DNA of 64,000 nt, taken from the NCBI GenBank assembly GCA_009733575.1, contig ML769462.1, positions 58,662 to 122,661 of the forward strand, read 5' to 3'. A program made the position numbers and the translations under genes. Under the pieces are notes generated by a model. That model was not told where the DNA came from. It did not search any database and was given only the letters and a program-made list of their open reading frames with translations. The stretch is from Gymnopus androsaceus JB14. Its lineage: Eukaryota > Basidiomycota > Agaricomycetes > Agaricales > Omphalotaceae. Positions 3,752-16,163 of this stretch are shown here, piece after piece (within the stretch, counting starts at the first letter, position 1; each line of letters starts with the position of its first letter).

Positions 3752-4877
3752 TATGAAGTCATTTTTCATTGTAAATTGATCGATGTGATCAAAATGTCAT
3801 TAATGTACATCCTCTAACGTTTGACGTGCCCGCTTTTCTACTGATTGTTCTATGTTGAACGTTGGACGTTGCAAAAAAAGGATTATCTATCTTTAATACA
3901 ATGTCTCTTATATTATACTTGAGCAATCAAGATATTACAAGCATATTATAATAAAGGATAAGCCTCTTTTGATGGACTAGCTGTGCCTCAACTCTGAAGG
4001 GTACTCACCTTGTATTCCAGCATGGAGTAGCTTGTAAGTCTCTTTTGATTGTCCAGTCGCTGTCTGTTGACTGTCTTTTTCACATACAATGCGACATATT
4101 ATGGATTACCGGGCGCTTAATTTGATGTTCCTCAATTGGGATGCCAACACGTGATGCGCCTTTCAGTTTTACTACATATTTTGGTCAAAAGAGTCAATTG
4201 ATAATCCATAAGGCAGACAACATTTGGACAACCAGGAGACAGTGTACAATTAGTCAACAGACAACACATAATATCATTAATTTTTGCATTTGGTTGAAGC
4301 AATAATAATATATTTGGAGATGTAGGAGGGTTAACAGATAGTACAGTGAACCAACAGCAAACAGTGAAGTGAACGTTCAACAAATGTAACCTGAATAGAG
4401 CTTATTAGCAACGCATTGCGAACTAGTTTGCATGGATAGAAAAACGCCAAGCTTTGCTACAGAAAAATAATGACGTTACTTTTTGGCCGGCCATGCACAG
4501 GTTTGAGGCCGAGCTCGAAATGTTCTTAACACGGTCACAGACAAATTCCGCTACGTAGATCCTCTGGGTCGCGTATAAAAGCTTCATTTCATCCCAACTA
4601 ACCTCGAGCAACGCGTGTACAGTGCTTGTCAAGGTATGTTGACGCGTTGGGCTTCTAACCATGTTATTCCTTTCTTACGTCACCGTCCAGGGATCCGGCC
4701 ATATGCCTTTTCAAGAAAGCGCTTAAACTGTGGAGCAAAAACTTTTGAAAAAGTTTGCACGAAGATCTGGGATCTTTGCAACTGAAAACTAGTTCGCAAC
4801 GCGCTGCTAATAAGCTCTAATGTGGAACCGATTACCCCAATCACGTCTCTCCTTTTTCCAATGAAAAATGATGTCAT
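3752..4877. mobile_element. non-autonomous TIR element (outer element)
   Basis: The left end, TATGAAGTCATTTTTCATTG, and the reverse complement of the right end, ATGACATCATTTTTCATTG, form imperfect terminal inverted repeats of about 19 bp with weaker similarity continuing inward (GATGTGAT versus GACGTGAT). ACAAAAT directly precedes the left end (3745-3751) and directly follows the right end (4878-4884), a candidate 7-bp target duplication. A related truncated copy occurs in the opposite orientation at 47073-47375. No transposase is encoded, and a 422-bp MITE is inserted within it. The superfamily is not assigned. Confidence 0.6.
4397..4818. mobile_element. 422-bp MITE with 33-bp TIRs, nested
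   Basis: The ends AGAGCTTATTAGCAACGCAT... (4397-4429) and the reverse complement of the right end match at 31 of 33 positions. AAT flanks it on both sides (4394-4396 and 4819-4821). The related copy at 47073-47375 lacks this block and reads straight through the same junction, so the insertion boundaries and the 3-bp duplication are supported by an empty site inside the same window. No ORF of note is present. Confidence 0.85.
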
Positions 4878-5157
4878 ACAAAATATCTTGAATGATAATA
4901 CAATGTCCGTTCGTTTAGGACAATAAGTCTGGTTGTGTTTGTGAAAACCATTGCAGTTTGCAAGATGCGGTTCTCAAAAAGATGTTGCTTATTGTTTCTT
5001 GTTCGACCGACAGACATTGAACGCTCTTGCAATGCTAACAGAGGGGAAACTGTTTCGTCGGCACGTTGACCTATGCCGATAAGGGCCGTGGTAAAATCGG
5101 GTAAAGATCTGGACTAAAAGTCACGTTTATTTGTTCGATCGTACGGTACAAGGCCCT

Positions 5158-5165
5158 CCCTCTCA
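5158..5165. repeat. 8-bp target-site duplication, left (KDZ element)
   Basis: CCCTCTCA lies immediately outside the left TIR and is repeated exactly at 15642-15649 outside the right TIR. Eight base pairs is the duplication length reported for Zisupton-type KDZ elements. Confidence 0.9.
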
Positions 5166-5439
5166 CACCTCGACATCACACCAACTGAAACATATAAGCC
5201 TGACATGATGGCCCCCACATGCCAGGCTCCCTCCCCTTGATTCGCGTATTACCGCACACTCCGAATATTTCGACCAATAACTATAGATAATATCAATTAG
5301 GAAGGAGTCCAGATAGACCCATAGATCCCTCACATAAGCCAGAGAATGCGTGATTCCGTTTGACGGATATTCCTCCGGCAATAAACTTGCCTTCCGAAGT
5401 TCCGGTCTGCATCTTTGCGCAATCAGGCATCCCGCCCTT
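5166..5439 (+). repeat. left terminal inverted repeat of the KDZ element
   Basis: It begins CACCTCGACATCACACC and matches the reverse complement of the right TIR across 274 bases with one substitution (T against C near 5308) once the 29-bp duplication in the right copy is removed. Similarity continues weakly for about 15 bases inward. ORFs read across this repeat are not genes. Confidence 0.92.
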
Positions 5440-5608
5440 TGCGCGCCTTCCCGACAACTTACTAATAATTTATACAGTTACCAAGTACTTTACTTATTGA
5501 ATGAGGAACTTACTACAAGCTCTATAAACACTCTCAAGTTGTAACTCTTTCTTGGTAGTTGGTGCAAAATATATATATATTCAACATACGACACAAACTA
5601 CAGCAAAG

Positions 5609-7171
5609 CTAAACAGCTTCGTTACCAGCGGCGCCAGCCCTTCCCTTACGCGGTTTGCCTGCATCGGAATGTTTCTTTCGAGAGCCCCTCTTTCGCACCG
5701 CTACTGCATCGCCGCTGGAGTCAGTAACCATGTTCATTGCTACGAAGTTAGAAGGGGGAGCTAGACCTGAGGCGGGAGAAGGAGATGCACCCGACGGAAC
5801 TTGAATCCCACTGCCAGATGTAGAGCTCAATCGCTCATCCGCAGCTGCCTGCCCTCCTGTTTCCGCTTCGCCACTGCTGCTGCCATCTCCACTCCCTTGT
5901 CTGTCATCACCACTCTGAATGACTGCAGGGCCAGAGGCTATCGCTAACCAGTCGCTGTACTCCTGAGTTGTCATACGGTAGAAGTGGGCCGTGCCCGAGT
6001 CCCATGCATGCCAGAGGAGTTCGAGCTCTGACTTTGTACTGACGCAACTAGGATTCTTGAACTCCTTCAACGGCCAGTTCTTGACAACGATTCCAAAGCG
6101 CTTGGTAATCTGCTCCTCGAAGCCTAGGTAGATCATGCGGCCAACCTTCACATTTCCGACAGACTCCTCTATTCAGACAGTTAGATACGTGAACAAGAAT
6201 AGCGAAACCACTCACGAAGTTTCCTAAAGATAAGTCCTGCAATATCCTTTTTCATTTGTGCAAGTATTTGCACATGCGTCCGCGCCAGCCCCTCAACACC
6301 AGAAACCATGAATGCGTCCATCCTGTATCCCATGTCGGCAGGAATCTCCTTGTATGCGTTGCTGAAGAACTCGACGACACGGTTGCTACTCGCAAAGACG
6401 TACGGCTTGTGGTAGACCTTGTTGCTTCCACGCGTAGTGATCAGCAAGTGTTCGTCACCTGTCCTCATAGTTAGGCGTTCCAACTATCATGCACCAAGTT
6501 AGTTTTGTGGTCAATAAAAATCTGATGAATGTACAGATTCTTGTACGCGCTGAAGAGTCAAGACAGAGTCTTGAGCTGCAGTGGCGGAGACTCGATGCTC
6601 CCCAACCTCTTTATTGGCTCGACGGTCGCGAAGATGTGCCAGCTCCTCTCTCGTAGCTGCATCTTTCTCCTCTTCAGACATGACTTCCCACTTCTTTGCT
6701 ATCTTCTTTGACAACTCGTTGACCTTCTGACGAGGCTGACCCTCTGGGACTTCTGTCAACGTACACTTTAGTGCTGAAGCAACAATGGACTAAAATGTAG
6801 CACTTACCAGCGTTCATAAGCTTGGATTGCAGGCTAACAAATGCGTTGTACCTTCCAACATTTTTTGTTGATGACTGCAGCCTCTCGGACTGGAAGATGT
6901 CGGTGGCAATGAGCTCGGTGGGGAGGTGAATAAAGCGCTCATGAATCTCAGCAGCAGCTGCGTAAATTTGCTGATGGACCTTGAGAAGAGCCTCCTTGTA
7001 ACTCTGCTTTTGGGCCGCGCGTTGCTTTTTTCTTTCCGATTTCTGCCCAGCAGTGAGCTTGATACCAATGCGTTTGGCACGAATTCTCCAGGGCTTTCGA
7101 GCAGTAGAACCCACTCTGCGCGATGCGTGTAGAAGCTTGTCGAAATTGCTTGCCTTCTTCTGTCGAGCCAT
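5609..7171 (-). CDS. HMG-box-like DNA-binding protein of the KDZ element
   Basis: Four exons (7171-6808, 6752-6547, 6483-6216, 6168-5609) joined by GT-AG introns give an uninterrupted 465-aa protein from an ATG at 7171. The N-terminal 60 residues are very basic. A segment spanning the first intron (about residues 105-165) fits an HMG box: RYNAFVSLQ, then KKIAKKWEVMSEEEKDAA. The middle is predicted globular, and the last 120 residues are low-complexity Ser/Gly/Ala ending in a basic tail with RKRGSRKKH. HMG boxes bend DNA, so a role as an element-encoded DNA-binding cofactor is inferred. The gene lies between the left TIR and the RNase H1-N-like gene, on the same strand. The HMG assignment is by motif only. 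Confidence 0.8.
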
Positions 7172-7314
7172 TGTGAACAGCTGGGAAAGAGACTCCGAGT
7201 ATTTCAAAGATTATTTATCAAAAAAATAGCGTATCGCACATCTAGATGTTGAGAAATCAAATTGTAAATTCAGTGAAACAAAAGATTGCGCATTTAACGA
7301 CTTTCCAACTCCAA

Positions 7315-8483
7315 CTACAGCATCTTGTACAGATCCCAAACCAACTGGACTTTCTCGGAAGTAAGCACGTTCCAAGACTCCTCTTTACCAACACTTTCTA
7401 TGAACGTTTCAGCGGAATATGCACCGAGAAGCACTTCCTCGATATCAGCAACATCTTCCAAACTGAGTCCCTCATTTGCGAGCATCCGGCGGCCGAAATC
7501 AACGCCTTTCGCCCTAGCAGCACGCGCTCGTCGTGCAGGAGAGGCAGGACCGGGGCTTTCAGGGTCTGATTGATAGTCAAAATCAAGATAACATCAAGAT
7601 ATCAAAACACCAAAAAAAAACAGAACATACTCGGGCTATTGATGCGCAGCTCAACGTTCGGTGAAAAGAAAATGTGGTATGAGCCGGGGGTTCCTTGCGT
7701 ATTGGTTACAGGAGCTGGGCGACGAGGAGTAGATGGCGCAGAGGGAATTTGGTGGCTGGAAGGGAGTTGCGGAGCTTCAGGATCAGAAGGTGGGTCAGGG
7801 TTGGGAATATGTTCTTCCGGGGCCTCCTCCTTCACACCCTCTTCCAGAAGAGACCTACGGAGAGCAGCGCTACTTTCGGGCTGGCTCAGAGGGTTATATA
7901 CATGAAGTGCTGTCCTGGGAGCATCGTTGAGCATCTGGCATTTAATAGCCTCAGAGAAACTGCGGAATGCAAACGCTTCTTGAAAAAGGCGGCCGTCGGA
8001 GTTTGTCTTGGAGTTGTCAACTGAGGCAATAGCTTCAGCACTGTTCAAGTGCACTGTGAGAATACTTATTGGAAGATGGCCAGAACGACCTACGTGTCAA
8101 GAAACAACCCAGGCTTAGCACCGTGCTTGACTACCCATATCAACTTATCTCGCTGCTCTACTGCGTCTGCTACCTCTTGAAAACCTGGGGCAGAGATAAA
8201 GTTCTGCACAAGTACACGGGGCGCTGGAATCCAATTGGACCGCACAGAGAAAAACGGCTGAAGACGGTCAAATACAAAGGCTGCGAAGGTATAGTCGGGG
8301 CATTGTATATGGATGGGGAGAGGCGGCGCGCTGTATCCACCAGCCTTGAATTGCCTGTAAGTACTGCGTTAGTAGATGAAATAATAAAATAACTCATAGT
8401 TACATCGAATTATACAACGCTGGACTCTTGTAAGGTGAACCTAGATTTTTGGGGCCCAAAACAACGTAGCATTTCTGAGCCAT
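7315..8483 (-). CDS. KDZ-element protein with RNase H1 N-terminal (hybrid-binding) like domain
   Basis: Four exons (8483-8404, 8354-8094, 8040-7631, 7565-7315) give a 333-aa protein starting MAQKCYVV. Around residues 100-160 a segment reads WVVKHGAKPGLFLDTAEA ... FQEAFAFRSFSEAIKCQML. This follows the RNase H1 N-terminal/caulimovirus viroplasmin pattern (YVV-x-G-x-x-PG-hydrophobic-x-x-W/T-x-x-A ... F-x-x-F-x-x-x-x-EA), a small fold that binds RNA-DNA hybrids or dsRNA. No RNase H catalytic domain follows; instead there is a proline-rich linker and a charged C-terminus with PARRARAARAKG. It is divergently paired with the TET/JBP gene with 132 bp between start codons. The domain call is an inference from pattern; the exon structure is well supported. 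Confidence 0.75.
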
Positions 8484-8615
8484 AATCAATGGGTGAGTTG
8501 GAAACAACTTGCGAAGTTTCGTCAAGATTAAGCGCCGAAATCACATGTAATTAATACGCGGTCCGCGTTCCGCATTCAACAATTGCACATTTGTTGACTT
8601 TCAACCACTTCCGCG
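8484..8615. promoter_or_regulatory. bidirectional promoter between the RNase H1-N-like and TET/JBP genes
   Basis: Only 132 bp separate the two divergent start codons (8483 minus, 8616 plus), so both genes must share this region for transcription. No clear TATA box is visible. The arrangement predicts coordinated expression. Confidence 0.6.
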
Positions 8616-10354
8616 ATGAAGATCAAGCTCAAGTTACCGAATGGTAAGTTTGCTATCGATCTTTCTTTTATTCTCTCTTCCCTTCGATGCTGGGAGAGAC
8701 TCACGCGCTGCAGCCTCTCTTGCGTACTCATGCACTGGGAATACAAGAGTAGGGCTGCATGCCGTTTGCTCTTTGACGCGCCGTTGGCTCTTTGACGCAT
8801 TGTTTGCTTTTTCATTTATCTGACCAACCGCTGTTTATAGATATAGCCCAGTCTCTGGGCGTGTCAGCTTACATCTTCCAAAAAGACTTCAAATTCTCTC
8901 AAGCTTTACTGTTTGCAGTCAACCTTGAAGGCCACATCCATGCAGACAATACTGAATCCGACGACGCCGAATACCCTTCACCCCTTTCCTCACCTCTCTC
9001 CTCGCCTTCCTCTTCTCTGCCACCAACGCGCCCTCCTTCGCCGCAAGTACCGTCGAATCCGTCGGAGAAGAAGCGCCAACAGGGCAAAGCTCACAGCAAG
9101 CAGAACCGAAAGAAACGCCGCCAGGAGGCACCCCCAAAGGCTGCTGCTGACATACCGACACGCAGCGACCCCGCTGACCGTTTCGTTGCTAACGGCGCAG
9201 CTTTCTCAGTGGCATATTCTATGGCAGACGACGCCCCAGTCGCGTCAACGTCGTACGTTGGCCTTCTTGACAGTGGTGAGGGAGGAGAAGGACGAACGTG
9301 GGCGCTGAAAGAGCTAGTAGGCCCCCGATCTAAAGGTTTTACCCTGGTAAAAGCAGCGCCTGGGTGAGTACACTGGCTTTTTACGCTCCGATAAGATTCT
9401 GAGAGTTTCTTAGAACCACTGTCCCTTTGGCTGACGCAAACGGTCGCGTTTTTGGACTCGTTGCCTATGGCGACTCTAGCATTCAACAATGTGCTGAAGA
9501 CGCCGCGCAACTCCTCAAGAAAACGCGAGCGCATGCCTCTTTCACCGGCAAGCAAAAACATGGACGGCGTGGATACTTTGCCAACCTCAATGCGGGTGTA
9601 GCTCACGGCGGTGGACGTCTAGTGAGTGACTATTCTTTTGTTTATTCAACGCAGACTCATCGAAACCTTCTCAGCGCCCAGCCAATATCGTGAACAGCGA
9701 AGCCAACGCTGCTGTTATTGACGACCTCATCAACTCCGTCCCGTTCAAGCGGCTGTCTGGGTACGCGACAGGTAACTTTCTCTTCGCATTATCCCGACTC
9801 TTCTGACACTAGCAGGTATCTTCAAAAGTTGGGCACCGAAACTCTACGACTACTGCAGCAGGCAGTTTGAACGCCTCCTGGCTAGCGACAACTCCCTTAT
9901 TCGCATCTTCGACAATAGCGTGTTGGCGTCGGCAGCATTCAATTTTGGCCCTCGCACCGTTTGTGTTCCTCACATCGACTTCGGCAACCTCCCGTTTCTT
10001 TGGTGTTGGATCTGGGGCTTGGGGTGGTTTAACTGGAAGAAGGGCGGCCATCTAGTGTTGTGGGACTTAAAGCTTGTCATTGAGTTTCCCCCCGGCACCG
10101 TCGCCGCAATTCCTTCAGGTGTCTGCAGGCACGGTAATACACGTATTCGTAAAAACGAGACGCGATATTCATTCACACAGTACTCTTCAGGTGGAAACTT
10201 CCGTTGGGTAGACCGTGGATTTCAGACAGAGGAAGACTATAGGGCTACGCGGGCTGCTGAAGAGGCTAAGGAGGAGGAAATTCGTAAGCGCGATCGTTGG
10301 GAAATGGGCTTAAATATGTTTTCTACTCTTGAAGAGCTTGGGCTCCATACATAG
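8616..10354 (+). CDS. TET/JBP-family 2-oxoglutarate/Fe(II) dioxygenase
   Basis: Five exons (8616-8643, 8841-9363, 9414-9621, 9675-9771, 9816-10354) give 464 aa without interruption. The C-terminal half is the TET/JBP double-stranded beta-helix. The iron ligands are H338 and D340 in PHIDFGN, the distal His is H391 in CRHGNTR, and the 2-oxoglutarate Arg is R402 in ETRYSFTQY. GGHLVLWDLKL and IEFPPGTVAAIPSG are further family strands. The N-terminal ~110 residues after a short leader are Ser/Pro-rich and basic. The family oxidises 5-methylcytosine in DNA (or thymine in JBPs), so this enzyme probably modifies methylated bases, perhaps to counter silencing of the element. The start is fixed by a short first exon with a consensus GTAAGT donor. 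All ligands are present. Confidence 0.93.
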
Positions 10355-11285
10355 CGTGTCAAATATACATGTTTTATCGATTTTTCTGGCATAAGGAACT
10401 TAATTAAAACGTAGAAATGAAGTTCGGCCCGTGGATCCGAAGCTCGAGTTCAACGTTTGCAACGTTGAGCATGCTCGATCTATGATATATTGAGCCATAA
10501 AAAGTATGTCAGTATGCTCTAGTAGACATGTTTAATTGGTGTATGTATTTGCATTTGCATCGTCTCATACATTATGGAGTTACACGTTGTTCGACGTTGA
10601 AGAAAAAGTATCACTGCAATTGCACCCACATTCACTGCACTTTTCTGCCTTAAAATTTAATAGAAACACAAGTTGGCCCCATAATGAAGAAATAGTCGAG
10701 CTGATTCTTCTCAGACCACTATATCTGCCTTAAGTTGATTTCTTCGCTGGCAAATACGCCCGAAAATGTGAGATTTACAAAATGTCAAGCATCGTCTTGA
10801 CTTACGTTTGACACTTGAGCACAAGTACATCAGGATTAATGATAATTCATACTACGTCTATTATGTTCCGCAAACAGTGCATTTTACCCTGCACTCAACA
10901 ATTTGTTCTGACGTTCATCCAATTTCTGAGTTCTATAGGTTATAGAGCTGCTGCGTATATAAAAATAAGAGAAACGGGATCGTATTAGGGTTTAGGAGAT
11001 ATAAATAAACCATTAAGTATTAATGCGCCTCCACTTGAGTGTGTAGAAATGCCAGGAGACCCAAAGGCGGGCGTAGAGGCGCAATACCGACGGTGCAGGC
11101 GGGAACTTCATAAGTTAAGCGCCCATGGGCAAACGCCTTGCTGATCTTTCTATCAACCTCAAGGTACCGTACGAAACACGACATGCTTGAATCCCTCTGT
11201 AAAAATGCAACGTAACGTTGTTGAAACTGAGGCTACTGCTACTAAGTAGGGCTCAGATTAAAAAGTGTGTTAAAAAGTTGCGCTA
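10355..11285. other. non-coding interval inside the KDZ element
   Basis: AT-rich sequence between the 3' ends of the TET/JBP gene and of the small minus-strand ORF. The short ORFs here have no recognisable protein character. No repeats stand out. Confidence 0.45.
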
Positions 11286-11724
11286 TCATGATTCCATGTA
11301 CCTCCCCTTCCATACGAATTTTCCACTAACACTACATTTCTCAAGCACCCGAACCCTTTTCTCCTTCGCGTCCCACTCCCAAGCATCATCCTCTATTTCC
11401 TCAACTACTTTTACTGCCTGTTGCCTGCGGTTTATTTCAATTGTGCCGTTTCGCATTGGGAGAAAAAGTACACACTGTTGAACTTTCTTGCTTTGCCTAT
11501 GCGCCGCATACTGCGCTATACGCTGATGCTCTTCCGGCGTGACTTTTAAGGATTTCAAACTGGCTAGTGCATTAATCCGTGCCCTTCAGTAAAGTCTGAG
11601 CGAGCAGCAGTACCGACGCAGGCAATGCTTACTCATTCGATTCTCCAGGGTTATTGACTTCGCATTCATGGAAGTAGTCCAGTAGATATTCGTCCGTAAG
11701 CGTTGTGTTTTCAGGCAAAGGCAT
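11286..11724 (-). CDS. small unknown protein of the KDZ element
   Basis: Two exons (11724-11633 and 11559-11286) flank a 73-bp GTAAGC...CCAG intron and encode 121 aa starting MPLPENTTLTDEYLLDY. The C-terminal half is highly charged with many Arg, Lys and Glu, including RQSKKVQQC and an acidic stretch EEIEDDAWEWD. No family is recognised. It lies between the TET/JBP gene and the transposase, on the transposase strand. The start is the first in-frame ATG after an upstream stop. It could be a real accessory gene or a remnant. Confidence 0.45.
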
Positions 11725-11985
11725 GGGCTGTCGGATGGCAGTGTGAAATGGGAGGGATGGTAGTGGGAGAACAGCAGCAATGGGTGTGTGGCGTTAATCT
11801 GTAAAAAATTGTTGGACCAGGTGCAGCATGCAAATCTGAGATATGCAATCTCTGAATTTCATTTTCAGTATGATCAGTTGTTGCAATGTTCGAAACCCTA
11901 GCAGTACATCAAGCTTTGTAGCGGATTATAAAACTTCAGAGAAACTTCATTAAAAAAAACTTCAAGTTACACAGAGACTAAAATG

Positions 11986-14900
11986 TTACTGCACGGAGAT
12001 GTTAGACATAAAGTCTACAATGGCACCTACGCCTTCAGTAAAGTCGTCGTCCTCTTCATCTCCTCCATCATTGGACTCAGGGTCTGGGGCATCTGAGCTA
12101 GCCTCAGGTAGATTTGTATCAACTGTGCCCTTTCGTTTCCCCGGAGAAGGATCACCTGTAAAACCTGGTAAATCGTAGGTCTGGTGAATGCGTGCAAGCA
12201 GCAGCCGGTTCACTGCTTGGCGGCGATGTATGTAGTCGGAGACAGGGCCTAACATTGGCGAATCTGCCAGCCTTTCGAGAACAGTGTTGAAGTGCTTCCC
12301 TTCATCAACTATGGAGGTGTGAAGGCGTCGAATGCCAATGTTGCAGTGTGCAATTTCTTCGCGAGCACGCTGGATTCGACGATGTTGCTTCATGAGGCTG
12401 CGGTTTACTGGTTTGGCCCATGGCTGATCGAAGACACTGTGCCGTGTGTCCTTAAGGATGTTGAATTGGTCAAGGAAGGCGAAATGAGACACCTTTGCCC
12501 AGTCCAAGGTGTCGCGGGGAGGGGTGAGTGCTGATGCAGCAGTGTTGTATGATTTGACAGCGTTTCGAATAGCCTGGGAGCGGCGTTGAAGGGCGTTCGC
12601 TATATGTGTGCGCATCTTGTATCCTGCAACATAAGTATATGGCTCAGCTGAAATCTTAACGTTGCAATTCACATACCTGTGTTGGAAAGATTCATCTTGT
12701 GGAGCTCGAATAGCCGCTGAACCACCAGCTTCTGTAGGTGTTCCAGTGCTTGTCGATACTTACGGGTATTGAGGTACTCCATTGCCCCCTTGTACTCCTG
12801 GTCATGCGGCTCCCATCGACGCTCAACATTCATTGCCGTTTCCATCTGAACGATTTCAAATAGAACCTTGTCCCTCTGCTCAAGAAGGAAGCGACGTCGG
12901 GTTTCTGTTTTCCGGCTTTCAGAGAGGTTGATATTGTACGCAGCGGCGTCAGAAAGGAATTGGTAGTCAGAGGGGGTATGGAGGCGAAAGCTTGTGCTTG
13001 CGTTTTCATAACTGGTGCTATGTTGCGAACTTGAAAATCAGAAAACATATGCAAAATCAAATATCTGAAACGCACTTGATTTCCCTGTACTTTCGAAGCA
13101 GTTCAATGTATGCGACAGCGTGGAGGTCCTCCGAGGTCTCGCTGCCCAGAGTAGATAGGTGGCGCTGTTCGTCATTGAGATACGTATCAATATCTCCCTC
13201 AGTGAGATTCAGTGCCTGAAGGTCGGCCTTGAAAGCGGGAAGTTCAAACTCCAGAATGTCAAGGGCTTGGATGTAGTTGTTGTGTAGCATTGTGGCGAGG
13301 TTTTGATACTTTTCGCGATCCCATTGTTGGAGAAATAGATCAATGAAAATGCGGCGTTGATGAGGACTCATATACCGTGTGATAGAGGCAAGCTGGTTCG
13401 AGGAGGAGAAGAGTCGTTCCAGGGTTTCGAGGTCCTCTAGTCCCATGCCAGGGATGTTGAGAGGGTGAAATTTCTGCTGGCAAATAGCACAGTGGGAGTA
13501 TCCATGAAATGCGTTCACGCAGGTCCGGCACCCTTTCTGCTTGAACTCAGAGCCTAGCGAACTGCTGCGGATTGTGCTGCTGAAGCTGCAGCCAATATCG
13601 TAGCCTAATATCCATGCAGGACCAAAAACCTTGAGTGCTTTTGCTACCATAGCAAGCGGGTATTTTGCTCTGTAAAATAATCGTTGAGTATGCATCAAGA
13701 AGAGAAAATAGAACGCACAGTTCCCCACTCCATATCATATCAGCTACCCACAGTACAAAACCATGCCGACAGGCCATAGCAAAATACCCAGACTCACGGA
13801 ACGCGTCCCACATCTTCTTTTCACTGTCCGCAGCTGCAGCCTTCCAGTTATCGGCACATTCGCGAATTTTGGGGTCTGGGTCTCCGTCGGTTGGGTCTCC
13901 ATGTTCTTCTGGCACCCCGAAGCCTTCTTCGCTGTCTTCGATGGCTGTTTTGGACTGAGAGCGGCGTGCGGGAACTTCGTTGGCAAAAGTATTGACAAAT
14001 TCCTCACTGAGGTAGTAGTCACTCTCGCCAAAGACACGGGTGTCTGCAACTTCACGTTTGCCAATGCCATCCATACGTTTCAGCGAGTTGTTGCCATCAA
14101 CAACAACCATACGGGAGAATGTTAGTGGGGGTTCACCTTCAAGCTAAAATAACGTCAGTTGGATGGGGCGTACTAAGTCCCAGGTTTCATACCTCATAGG
14201 CGCAAGGTGGGCAGCTATTGAGTGCGCGGTAATCTGGTGTATTGTGTCCTAGCTCGGCAGAAACGCGGGTGTTGACCTTCTGTAGTATGGCTAGGTAAAC
14301 GTCGAATGTGTCAGAGAGTGCAGTTCGGTATGAGCGGCGGTATGGGATCTGCAGAGTGGTTAGCGTAAAGTAAAGCAGCATTAAATAAGATTGCCCACAG
14401 CGTATAAATGACAAGTGGTTTTGGCAAAAGCTTCAACACTAAAGTTAGGCTTGAATAATCGGATGGCATAGAAGAGTTCCAGAGTTCGAAGTGAGACAGC
14501 AAGTGAGGGTGATTCAGGTGAAGCTGCAAGATATCCTGCACTGACAAGGGCTGAGGTGGCTTTCGTTTCGCTGTTTCGATGGACAGTTGTTTCGCGAGCG
14601 AGAGAATATACGTCAACAACAGGAATAGAGAACTCCCAACCGGCGGTGGCAGAAGACTGCGGTACAGAAGAGGGGTGATACTTCCAATTGATATAGTGAA
14701 CAACTAGTTCGTCAAGGATGGAAGCCCACGCATCATGGAATCGGTTAATACGCTGCTTCCAGGTGCGCGTGTCTTTGTATTTGCGACGGCCATGCCACTT
14801 GTTAATGCCAACATAGTCGCGTAGGTCTACTACAATACTTTGAGTAGACCTGAGCTCCGTGTCGCTGTCATCATCGCCTGGTTCTCCTCCAACATTGAAA

Positions 14901-15199
14901 TCAAACCCAAGGCCATCAACATCCATAGCATCAGGAATCTGAGGTGTTTCTCCAGAGATATCTTCTAAAGCGTTCTGCAATTCGGTGCTGAGGCCTTGAA
15001 GTGCAGTTAGTGCTGTTCAGTCAGTTATGCATAGTGGAGATGCACCTTGCGATGCTTGCGTTCTTCTTGAATGTGCTTCCGCCCGTTGCTTGGCCATAGC
15101 GCGAGGGCCTAACGTAGAAGCTGCGCCAAGCCCTTTTCCAAACCTCCCACTGCCGACATATGAGCGTACTGTACGCTGAATTGATTCACCTTTCGCCAT
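11986..15199 (-). CDS. KDZ transposase
   Basis: About seven exons can be joined in frame from an ATG at 15199 to the stop at 11986, giving roughly 950 aa. Family hallmarks appear in order. An N-terminal region is followed by CPPC-x-YELEGEPPL (near 14200, part of the cysteine cluster) and then VVVDGNNSLKRM (first catalytic Asp of the RNase H fold, near 14080). Next come CRHGFVLWVADMI, SGELAKYPLA across an intron, GYDIGCSFSST (second Asp, near 13590), and a second zinc-binding portion C-x2-C-x7-H-x2-C-x2-C (CRTCVNAFHGYSHCAICQQ). A long helical C-terminus with FHAP-like WEPHDQEYKGAM ends in an acidic tail. The enzyme cuts and pastes the element through its TIRs with 8-bp duplications. No lesion was found. 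Confidence 0.93.
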
Positions 15200-15338
15200 A
15201 AATCGGGGTGTTGAAAAAGACTACGGAGACGTGAGAGCTCTGCAAGAGCTGCAATCCAAACGCAAAAAATTGAGTCGGTTATATTAAGTCAAGTGGGCAG
15301 GTGGCAGCTAGCAGGAGGAAGGCGGGATGAAGGGCGCG

Positions 15339-15641
15339 AAGGGCGGGATGCCTGATTGCGCAAAGATGCAGACCGGAACTTCGGAAGGCAAGTTTATTGC
15401 CGGAGGAATATCCGTCAAACGGAATCACGCATTCTCTGGCTTATGTGAGGGATCTATGGGTCTATCTGGGCTCCTTCCTAATTGATATTATCTATAGTTA
15501 TTGGTCGAAATATTCGGAGTGTGCGGTAATACGCGAATCAAGGGGAGGGAGCCTGGCATGTGGGGGCCATCATGTCAGGCTTATATGTTTCAGTTGGTGT
15601 GATGTCGAGTTATATGTTTCAGTTGGTGTGATGTCGAGGTG
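15339..15641 (-). repeat. right terminal inverted repeat with 29-bp tandem duplication
   Basis: Reverse complement of the left TIR. The terminal 29-bp unit (TTATATGTTTCAGTTGGTGT...) is present twice in tandem, at 15581-15609 and 15610-15638, followed by GTG. The left TIR has it once. The two units are identical, so the duplication is recent. Confidence 0.92.
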
Positions 15642-15649
15642 CCCTCTCA
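15642..15649. repeat. 8-bp target-site duplication, right (KDZ element)
   Basis: CCCTCTCA, identical to 5158-5165. Confidence 0.9.
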
Positions 15650-15689: not shown

Positions 15690-15902
15690 ATGGCCTTGGT
15701 CGCGTATGGATGTTCCCTATCTTACATGCATTCCAGAATGAGGCACCGTGTGGCCGAGCTCCAAAAAGTGTTGAACAGGGCCAAGCAGGAGGCTGCGATG
15801 ACGGAGAGGAAAACTGTCACGTAGGTGTATTCAGCTTTTTACACCACAAATTCTTACTCTTTTTTCTTTCTTTTCAACAGTGGAACCACGTCAACACGGT
15901 GA
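15690..15902 (+). CDS. possible 50-aa microprotein
   Basis: An ATG at 15690 opens a frame (MALVAYGCSLSYMHSRM...) that can be spliced over a 60-bp GTAGGT...CAACAG intron (15821-15880) to a stop at 15902, giving 50 aa. A short hydrophobic N-terminus is followed by a basic, helix-prone segment with heptad-like Val/Leu spacing (RVAELQKVLNRAKQEAA), the form of small mitochondrial membrane proteins. The family is not recognised. The KDZ element is inserted only 40 bp upstream of the ATG, so the native promoter may be displaced. Confidence is limited by length. Confidence 0.4.
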
Positions 15903-16163
15903 AATGTATATCACTGTATCATGGAATGGATTTAATTGTACACTGAATCGTACACTATCGTACACAAATCGTAGTCGAGTCGTAAAGTTCATAAGTACTA
16001 GTACTGTTGTTACACGGGCGATAAAAGCTCCATCCGTCTCGTAGCCAACGCCAGCGGACTATTAGGCGCTAACTGTTCCGGTGTTCGACTCTCTGCGACA
16101 TCAAAGACCCATTCCCTTCGTAACCGCTTGCACACCTCTCTAAACGAGTCTACGGACCCCTTC

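Follow-up and report, generated by a model that had tools for sequence, protein, structure and literature searches.

The name KDZ/TET reportedly goes back to Iyer 2014. The part of Kojima 2025 available here (PMC12730594) describes complete TET-carrying transposons together with their termini and target-site duplications (TSDs), and complete TET-carrying transposons of the KDZ superfamily are known from it and, through it, from Iyer 2014. The kind of element reported here is therefore already known, and an earlier note on this DNA, which implied that complete KDZ/TET loci are rare, is dated on that point. As far as the same part of that source goes, TET-positive Zisupton elements occur in Auriculariales and Agaricales, Dileera is reported with a PU-type TET in Pucciniomycotina, and in the PE-type TET the HxD motif is replaced by HxE. 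The present element lets one ask why TET enzymes ride on transposons in mushrooms.

The window (the whole stretch of DNA analysed, 64,000 nucleotides) contains one such element, delimited by the following features.

5158 to 5165, unstranded: left TSD, CCCTCTCA, from the exact repeat and the empty sites
15642 to 15649, unstranded: right TSD, CCCTCTCA, from the exact repeat and the empty sites
5166 to 15641, unstranded: the element, 10,476 bp, with ends from the TSD and three empty sites
5166 to 5444, forward strand: left terminal inverted repeat (TIR), first letters CACCTCGACATCAC
15334 to 15641, reverse strand: right TIR, including a 29-bp tandem duplication
5431 to 5438, forward strand: left subterminal box CCCGCCCT
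15340 to 15347, reverse strand: right subterminal box CCCGCCCT
4878 to 5165, unstranded: left part of an older target repeat, 99% to C55
15650 to 15681, unstranded: right part of the same repeat, the first 30-40 bp of the right flank

The 8-bp duplications proposed in the earlier note are exact: CCCTCTCA stands at 5158-5165 and 15642-15649, its only two occurrences between 5001 and 15800, both flanking the element. The inverted-repeat arms (5169-5444 and 15334-15609) are 99% complementary over 276 nt. They mismatch at offsets 139 and 271, that is, about one substitution in the first ~274 bp, as had been read before, the second mismatch falling at offset 271. The right arm lies 29 bp away from the TSD because the outer part of that end is tandemly duplicated (15581-15609 and 15610-15638), which the earlier note did not report.

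In the same genome, a search for the empty site, which that note had proposed, found three paralogous sites (C55, C43 and C21) where the halves of the target repeat are joined, each with a single CCCTCTCA. The element therefore inserted into a pre-existing repeat, duplicating 8 bp. It moved in the past, and its reading as a fixed relic is contradicted on that point; bounded to the base, it is either recently inserted or still selected. The target repeat had no match in Rfam, and no repeats of 60 bp or more were found inside the tested flanks. Repeats lie nested in the left flank. Copies of 3966-4395, with about 92-97% identity, occur on at least 10 contigs, and 4394-4826 represents an insert of its own (C350, C41). 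On the other side, 15723-16108 has a 92% identical copy upstream of the window, at C80:47195-47580.

Copies of the element are named here by contig, within the one JB14 assembly, C80 being the contig of the window element. A genome-wide search with the terminal repeat, also proposed earlier, gave matches on eight contigs, the window's contig included, and revealed further copies. All six copies for which both ends were found (C80, C32, C42, C85, C488 and C23, the last located via its TET and the other five via the terminal repeat) have an exact 8-bp TSD, and all these TSDs are different; a single exact 8-bp match is expected by chance at about 1.5e-5. C409 is apparently a second contig of the C488 site, C253 has one short end, and C220 is a divergent copy with ends not set. 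Of the 12 ends of these six copies, 10 have an exact CACCTCGACATCAC and 10 have CCCGCCCT no more than about 430 bp inwards; the latter is present even in C23, whose arms otherwise have no match to those of the window element. C375, which belongs to another KDZ lineage, was compared genome-wide for a TSD and gave no shared ends.

Five hand-made gene models with GT-AG introns, built without transcripts, occupy the element, and none has an internal stop.

5609 to 7171, reverse strand: G1, 465 aa, 4 exons (6808-7171, 6547-6752, 6216-6483, 5609-6168), HMG-box-like at residues ~108-164
7315 to 8483, reverse strand: G2, 333 aa, 4 exons (8404-8483, 8094-8354, 7631-8040, 7315-7565)
8616 to 10354, forward strand: TET-type dioxygenase, 464 aa, 5 exons (8616-8643, 8841-9363, 9414-9621, 9675-9771, 9816-10354)
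11286 to 11724, reverse strand: G4, 129 aa, 2 exons (11633-11724, 11286-11583)
11986 to 15199, reverse strand: KDZ transposase, 967 aa, 7 exons (15046-15199, 14399-14994, 14193-14348, 13719-14143, 13076-13669, 12677-13017, 11986-12623)

The transposase and the dioxygenase, said earlier to have joinable exons, do join, in 7 and 5 exons, and a mobile unit of 10,476 bp with five genes agrees with the TSD, the empty sites and the five stop-free models. G1, G2, TET and KDZ recur in C32, C42, C488 and C23. Among the other copies G4 was found in C32, C42 and C488 only, and not in C23, C85 or C220 (C85 reads partly N, including its TET part); G4 may therefore be dispensable. The closest sister, C32, is 86-90% identical, and no near-identical sister copy was found in the genome; there is therefore no sign of a recent burst. 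C32 keeps every intron border of the models. Its TET and G2 are still open, its KDZ gene has changed length by 1 base and contains two stops, G4 has also changed length by 1 base, and G1 contains one stop.

Some copies carry inserts. C42 has reached about 21 kb through large inserts: one of ~8.4 kb interrupts the transposase, and others, of smaller size, lie close to either end. The left arm of C488 has an insert of ~80 bp with self-complementary ends that is absent from the right arm. Certain contig pairs repeat the same place: C490:14500-23999 and C245:88000-97499 are 97-99% identical, the alignment covering almost the whole 9.5 kb compared; they probably represent a single locus on two contigs, or a duplication of larger extent. 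C409:1-109 and C488:14282 likewise share the same flank and element end. These pairs suggest that the assembly may contain parts of two haplotypes. Homogenisation of the arms within copies was considered and is not upheld. Within C80 the two arms share 98.9% identity, and the best value to any other copy's full arm is 91.7% (92.9% to C42 over a 113-bp piece); those of C23 are 96% identical within the copy and match no other copy, and those of C488 are 96% identical over 127 bp within the copy and at most 82% to others. The C32 arms run against this pattern, being 92.3% identical within the copy but 94.8% to C85, as do those of C85 and C42, which have no clear within-copy excess.

The transposase matches PF18758 over residues 311-561 with 256.1 bits, far over the cut-off of 26.6, which bears out the identification as a KDZ transposon; candidate Asp and Glu motifs of the acidic triad were picked out by eye only. 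Counting exons, and with scores for 150 of 335 candidates, the genome has no fewer than 161 KDZ matches. A tree built from 31 selected KDZ sequences places the window type in a clade (99/99) separate from the CxC2 sequences (100/100) and from a third group (93/91). Matches to CxC2 clusters number 119 in the genome and those to CxC1 26; the window transposase itself has a sub-threshold CxC1 match only. Genome-wide, KDZ and TET neighbours occur in three layouts (convergent, as in the window, tandem and divergent), which coincide largely with the deep groups of the KDZ tree. A search of NCBIfam names for the TET and KDZ relatives gave no match.

The dioxygenase is a member of the TET/JBP family. 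Its HxD (as HID), distal His and 2OG-binding Arg are all present, so the catalytic set claimed for it earlier is complete. That set is also complete in 96 of 107 relatives, with three gaps and eight substitutions in the rest; 105 of the 107 have HxD and two HxN. The fold of one relative, P0002 (77% identical to the window TET over 71% of the latter), a double-stranded beta-helix, places CcTet, NgTET1, TET2 and CMD1 above all other listed entries, in keeping with the claim that a TET-family enzyme is aboard. Tet_JBP (PF12851) was not among the Pfam matches of the window protein, and the relative P0031 scored 28.3 bits against it, under the cut-off of 34.9, which is a model threshold and no defining trait of the family. 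In the whole genome the model gives a single match, at C425:9685-9906 and likewise under the cut-off (27.1 bits); this open frame carries an HKD motif and is apparently a different 2OG oxygenase. The last exon of the window TET, by comparison, has at least 100 matches. Fungal TET counts based on the model would therefore be too low: the curated profile nearly misses this family.

Three residues past the catalytic Asp, at the position of CcTet 331, 106 of 107 relatives have Asn, and nine residues past it 105 of 107 have Cys, where the alignment register is less certain. The family thus has neither Gly/Ser at 331 nor Asp at 337, the marks of the AG type, and has HxD and no HxE, the mark of the PE type. 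The Asn predicts a TET2-like 5mC chemistry and not the 6mA-tolerant pocket of CcTet, which gives a concrete substrate prediction, 5mC over 6mA.

G1 matches the HMG_box model weakly (20.4 bits against a cut-off of 25.4, E 7e-4), as do 8 of 13 G1 relatives at E <= 0.01; G2 has no Pfam match. G1 has 17 relatives, of which the 15 named ones are all from Gymnopus, Rhodocollybia or Lentinula, and the contigs of 9 of the 17 apparently recur among the listed TET or KDZ relatives (120 of 197 and 120 of 758, respectively). G1 has matches on 14 contigs of the genome: seven carry the copies described, three (C436, C323 and C208) have KDZ and TET matches beside those of G1, and the remaining four have no KDZ or TET among the matches listed.

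Against C32, dN/dS was 0.107 for G1, 0.229 for G2, 0.144 for TET, 0.366 for G4 and 0.212 for KDZ, with 95% intervals all below 1. The corresponding values against C42 were 0.213, 0.349, 0.259, 0.291 and 0.254, and against C85, which offers no TET and no G4, 0.173 (G1), 0.348 (G2) and 0.263 (KDZ). Some of the stops counted in these comparisons may be intronic, and values against C488, C220 and C23 are unreliable because synonymous change is saturated or almost so. As judged from these substitutions, all five genes are shown to be under purifying selection. The 2,358 codons that are stop-free in the window copy limit unconstrained change to at most about 1.2% per site.

C and G in CpG of the window copy appear as transitions in C42 at 265 of 1031 positions, other C and G at 270 of 3787; in the reverse direction, from C42 to the window copy, the CpG count is 77 of 648 (asymmetry p 2e-12). 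The asymmetry is weaker for C85 (119/669 vs 72/567, p 0.014). C32 is symmetric with the window copy (155/1063 and 156/1041), yet exceeds the non-CpG rate (244/3903). This pattern fits 5mC deamination in the element family, more advanced in the degenerate copies; the differences between copies could also come from age alone, for example from a greater age of C42. DNA_methylase matches lie at four host loci, and an intron-blind search of the host genome gave no match to a UDG/TDG-type glycosylase.

For 13 pairs of KDZ and TET, taken from Gymnopus, Rhodocollybia, Lentinula and Stygiomarasmius, the two sets of distances are correlated, with a Mantel r of 0.748 (p 0.0005). Six of the pairs come from copies within the JB14 genome; for the other seven the pairing is inferred, two being also supported by neighbouring gene numbers. 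One pair, Rb13012, differs in position between the two trees. C255 and C245 have a KDZ of the CxC2 type, yet their TET groups with the window TET (90/80). Joining their KDZ to the window KDZ is rejected (p-AU 0.0004). The test does not reject a constrained tree in which the CxC2 TETs form one group (p-AU 0.22), and swapping of TETs between KDZ lineages is not upheld.

Taken together, I consider the element probably to be a complete KDZ transposon whose own TET-type 5-methylcytosine dioxygenase counters host methylation. The transposase would recognise CACCTCGACATCAC at the conserved ends, and perhaps the subterminal box CCCGCCCT as well, and move everything between the ends. The host would methylate element copies at CpG; TET, perhaps aided by the HMG-box-like G1, would oxidise this mark, and the oxidation would keep the element transcribable or mobile. 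It is doubtful that one can go as far as a self-contained epigenetic escape module, in which a TET class so far untyped, with a TET2-like Asn pocket and 14-15% identity to CcTet, would be aimed at the element ends by a lineage-restricted HMG-box protein encoded alongside it, and oxidised methylated terminal repeats would license transposition.

Alternatively, TET could work in trans genome-wide, serving the host or transposons at large. The at least 100 genome matches to the window TET exon favour such a role, as does the oxidised 5mC that the available part of Kojima (PMC12730594) reports for C. cinerea and L. bicolor, where retrotransposons carry it too. Each KDZ-borne TET would then be redundant, yet the window TET is under selection, and I regard a trans role as unlikely. 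Quite unlikely, too, is a part for TET in the transposition reaction itself, an oxidised end base licensing or guiding the transposase with no reversal of silencing; the joint inheritance of TET, HMG-like protein and transposase and the conserved end motifs agree with it, but gene order differs at most KDZ loci examined for layout. That the dioxygenase is passive, hitchhiking cargo of no benefit to the element would accord with the passive TET transfer between transposon families described in the part of Kojima 2025 at hand (PMC12730594). This is very improbable given that TET dN/dS (0.144 against C32, 0.259 against C42) resembles that of the transposase (0.212, 0.254), that the C32 TET is open though the C32 transposase is broken, and that TET is co-inherited with KDZ. 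A fixed immobile relic, or a host gene cluster resembling a transposon, would suit a single occupied site in one assembly but is scarcely credible given that the TSD is exact, the genes are intact, three empty sites exist and six full copies each have a TSD of their own. For the preferred reading, a dioxygenase that counters host methylation, the element is assay-ready, with exact ends, an empty site, intact genes, sister copies and measured selection on TET.

How does the element compare with known systems? Like Kyakuja-1_LB and -2_LB of Laccaria bicolor, as these appear in the part of PMC12730594 available, it combines a KDZ transposase and a TET/JBP dioxygenase in an agaricomycete host, and 5'-CA..TG-3' ends are common to both. 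However, L. bicolor Kyakuja has 7-bp TSDs and no TIRs, whereas the window element has 8-bp TSDs and ~276-bp TIRs, and it is therefore not filed as Kyakuja. The enzymes differ as well: in that account the AG-type TET of Kyakuja has Asp337 and Gly or Ser at 331, where the window TET has Asn. CcTet of Coprinopsis cinerea (PMC11040006, as far as its text was available) is 14-15% identical to the window TET, and its Gly331 is Asn in 106 of 107 window-TET relatives. KDZ elements with TIR motifs are also described in a related mushroom, Marasmius oreades (PMC8290104). Long TIRs and 8-bp TSDs, combined with a TET class of no assigned type and an HMG-like partner, were not found described in the portions of the literature available, and the supplements of Kojima may list related families. 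With Zisupton the element shares the KDZ superfamily, 8-bp TSDs and TIRs (PMC12730594, in part); the A. bisporus Zisupton TET seems, from the wording there, to be of the PE type (HxE), the window TET having HxD. Dileera of rust fungi (Zisupton-1_PGr) is, in the same partial account (PMC12730594), a KDZ element with an 8-bp TSD and a TET gene, as is the window element. By TSD length the window element resembles Zisupton and Dileera.
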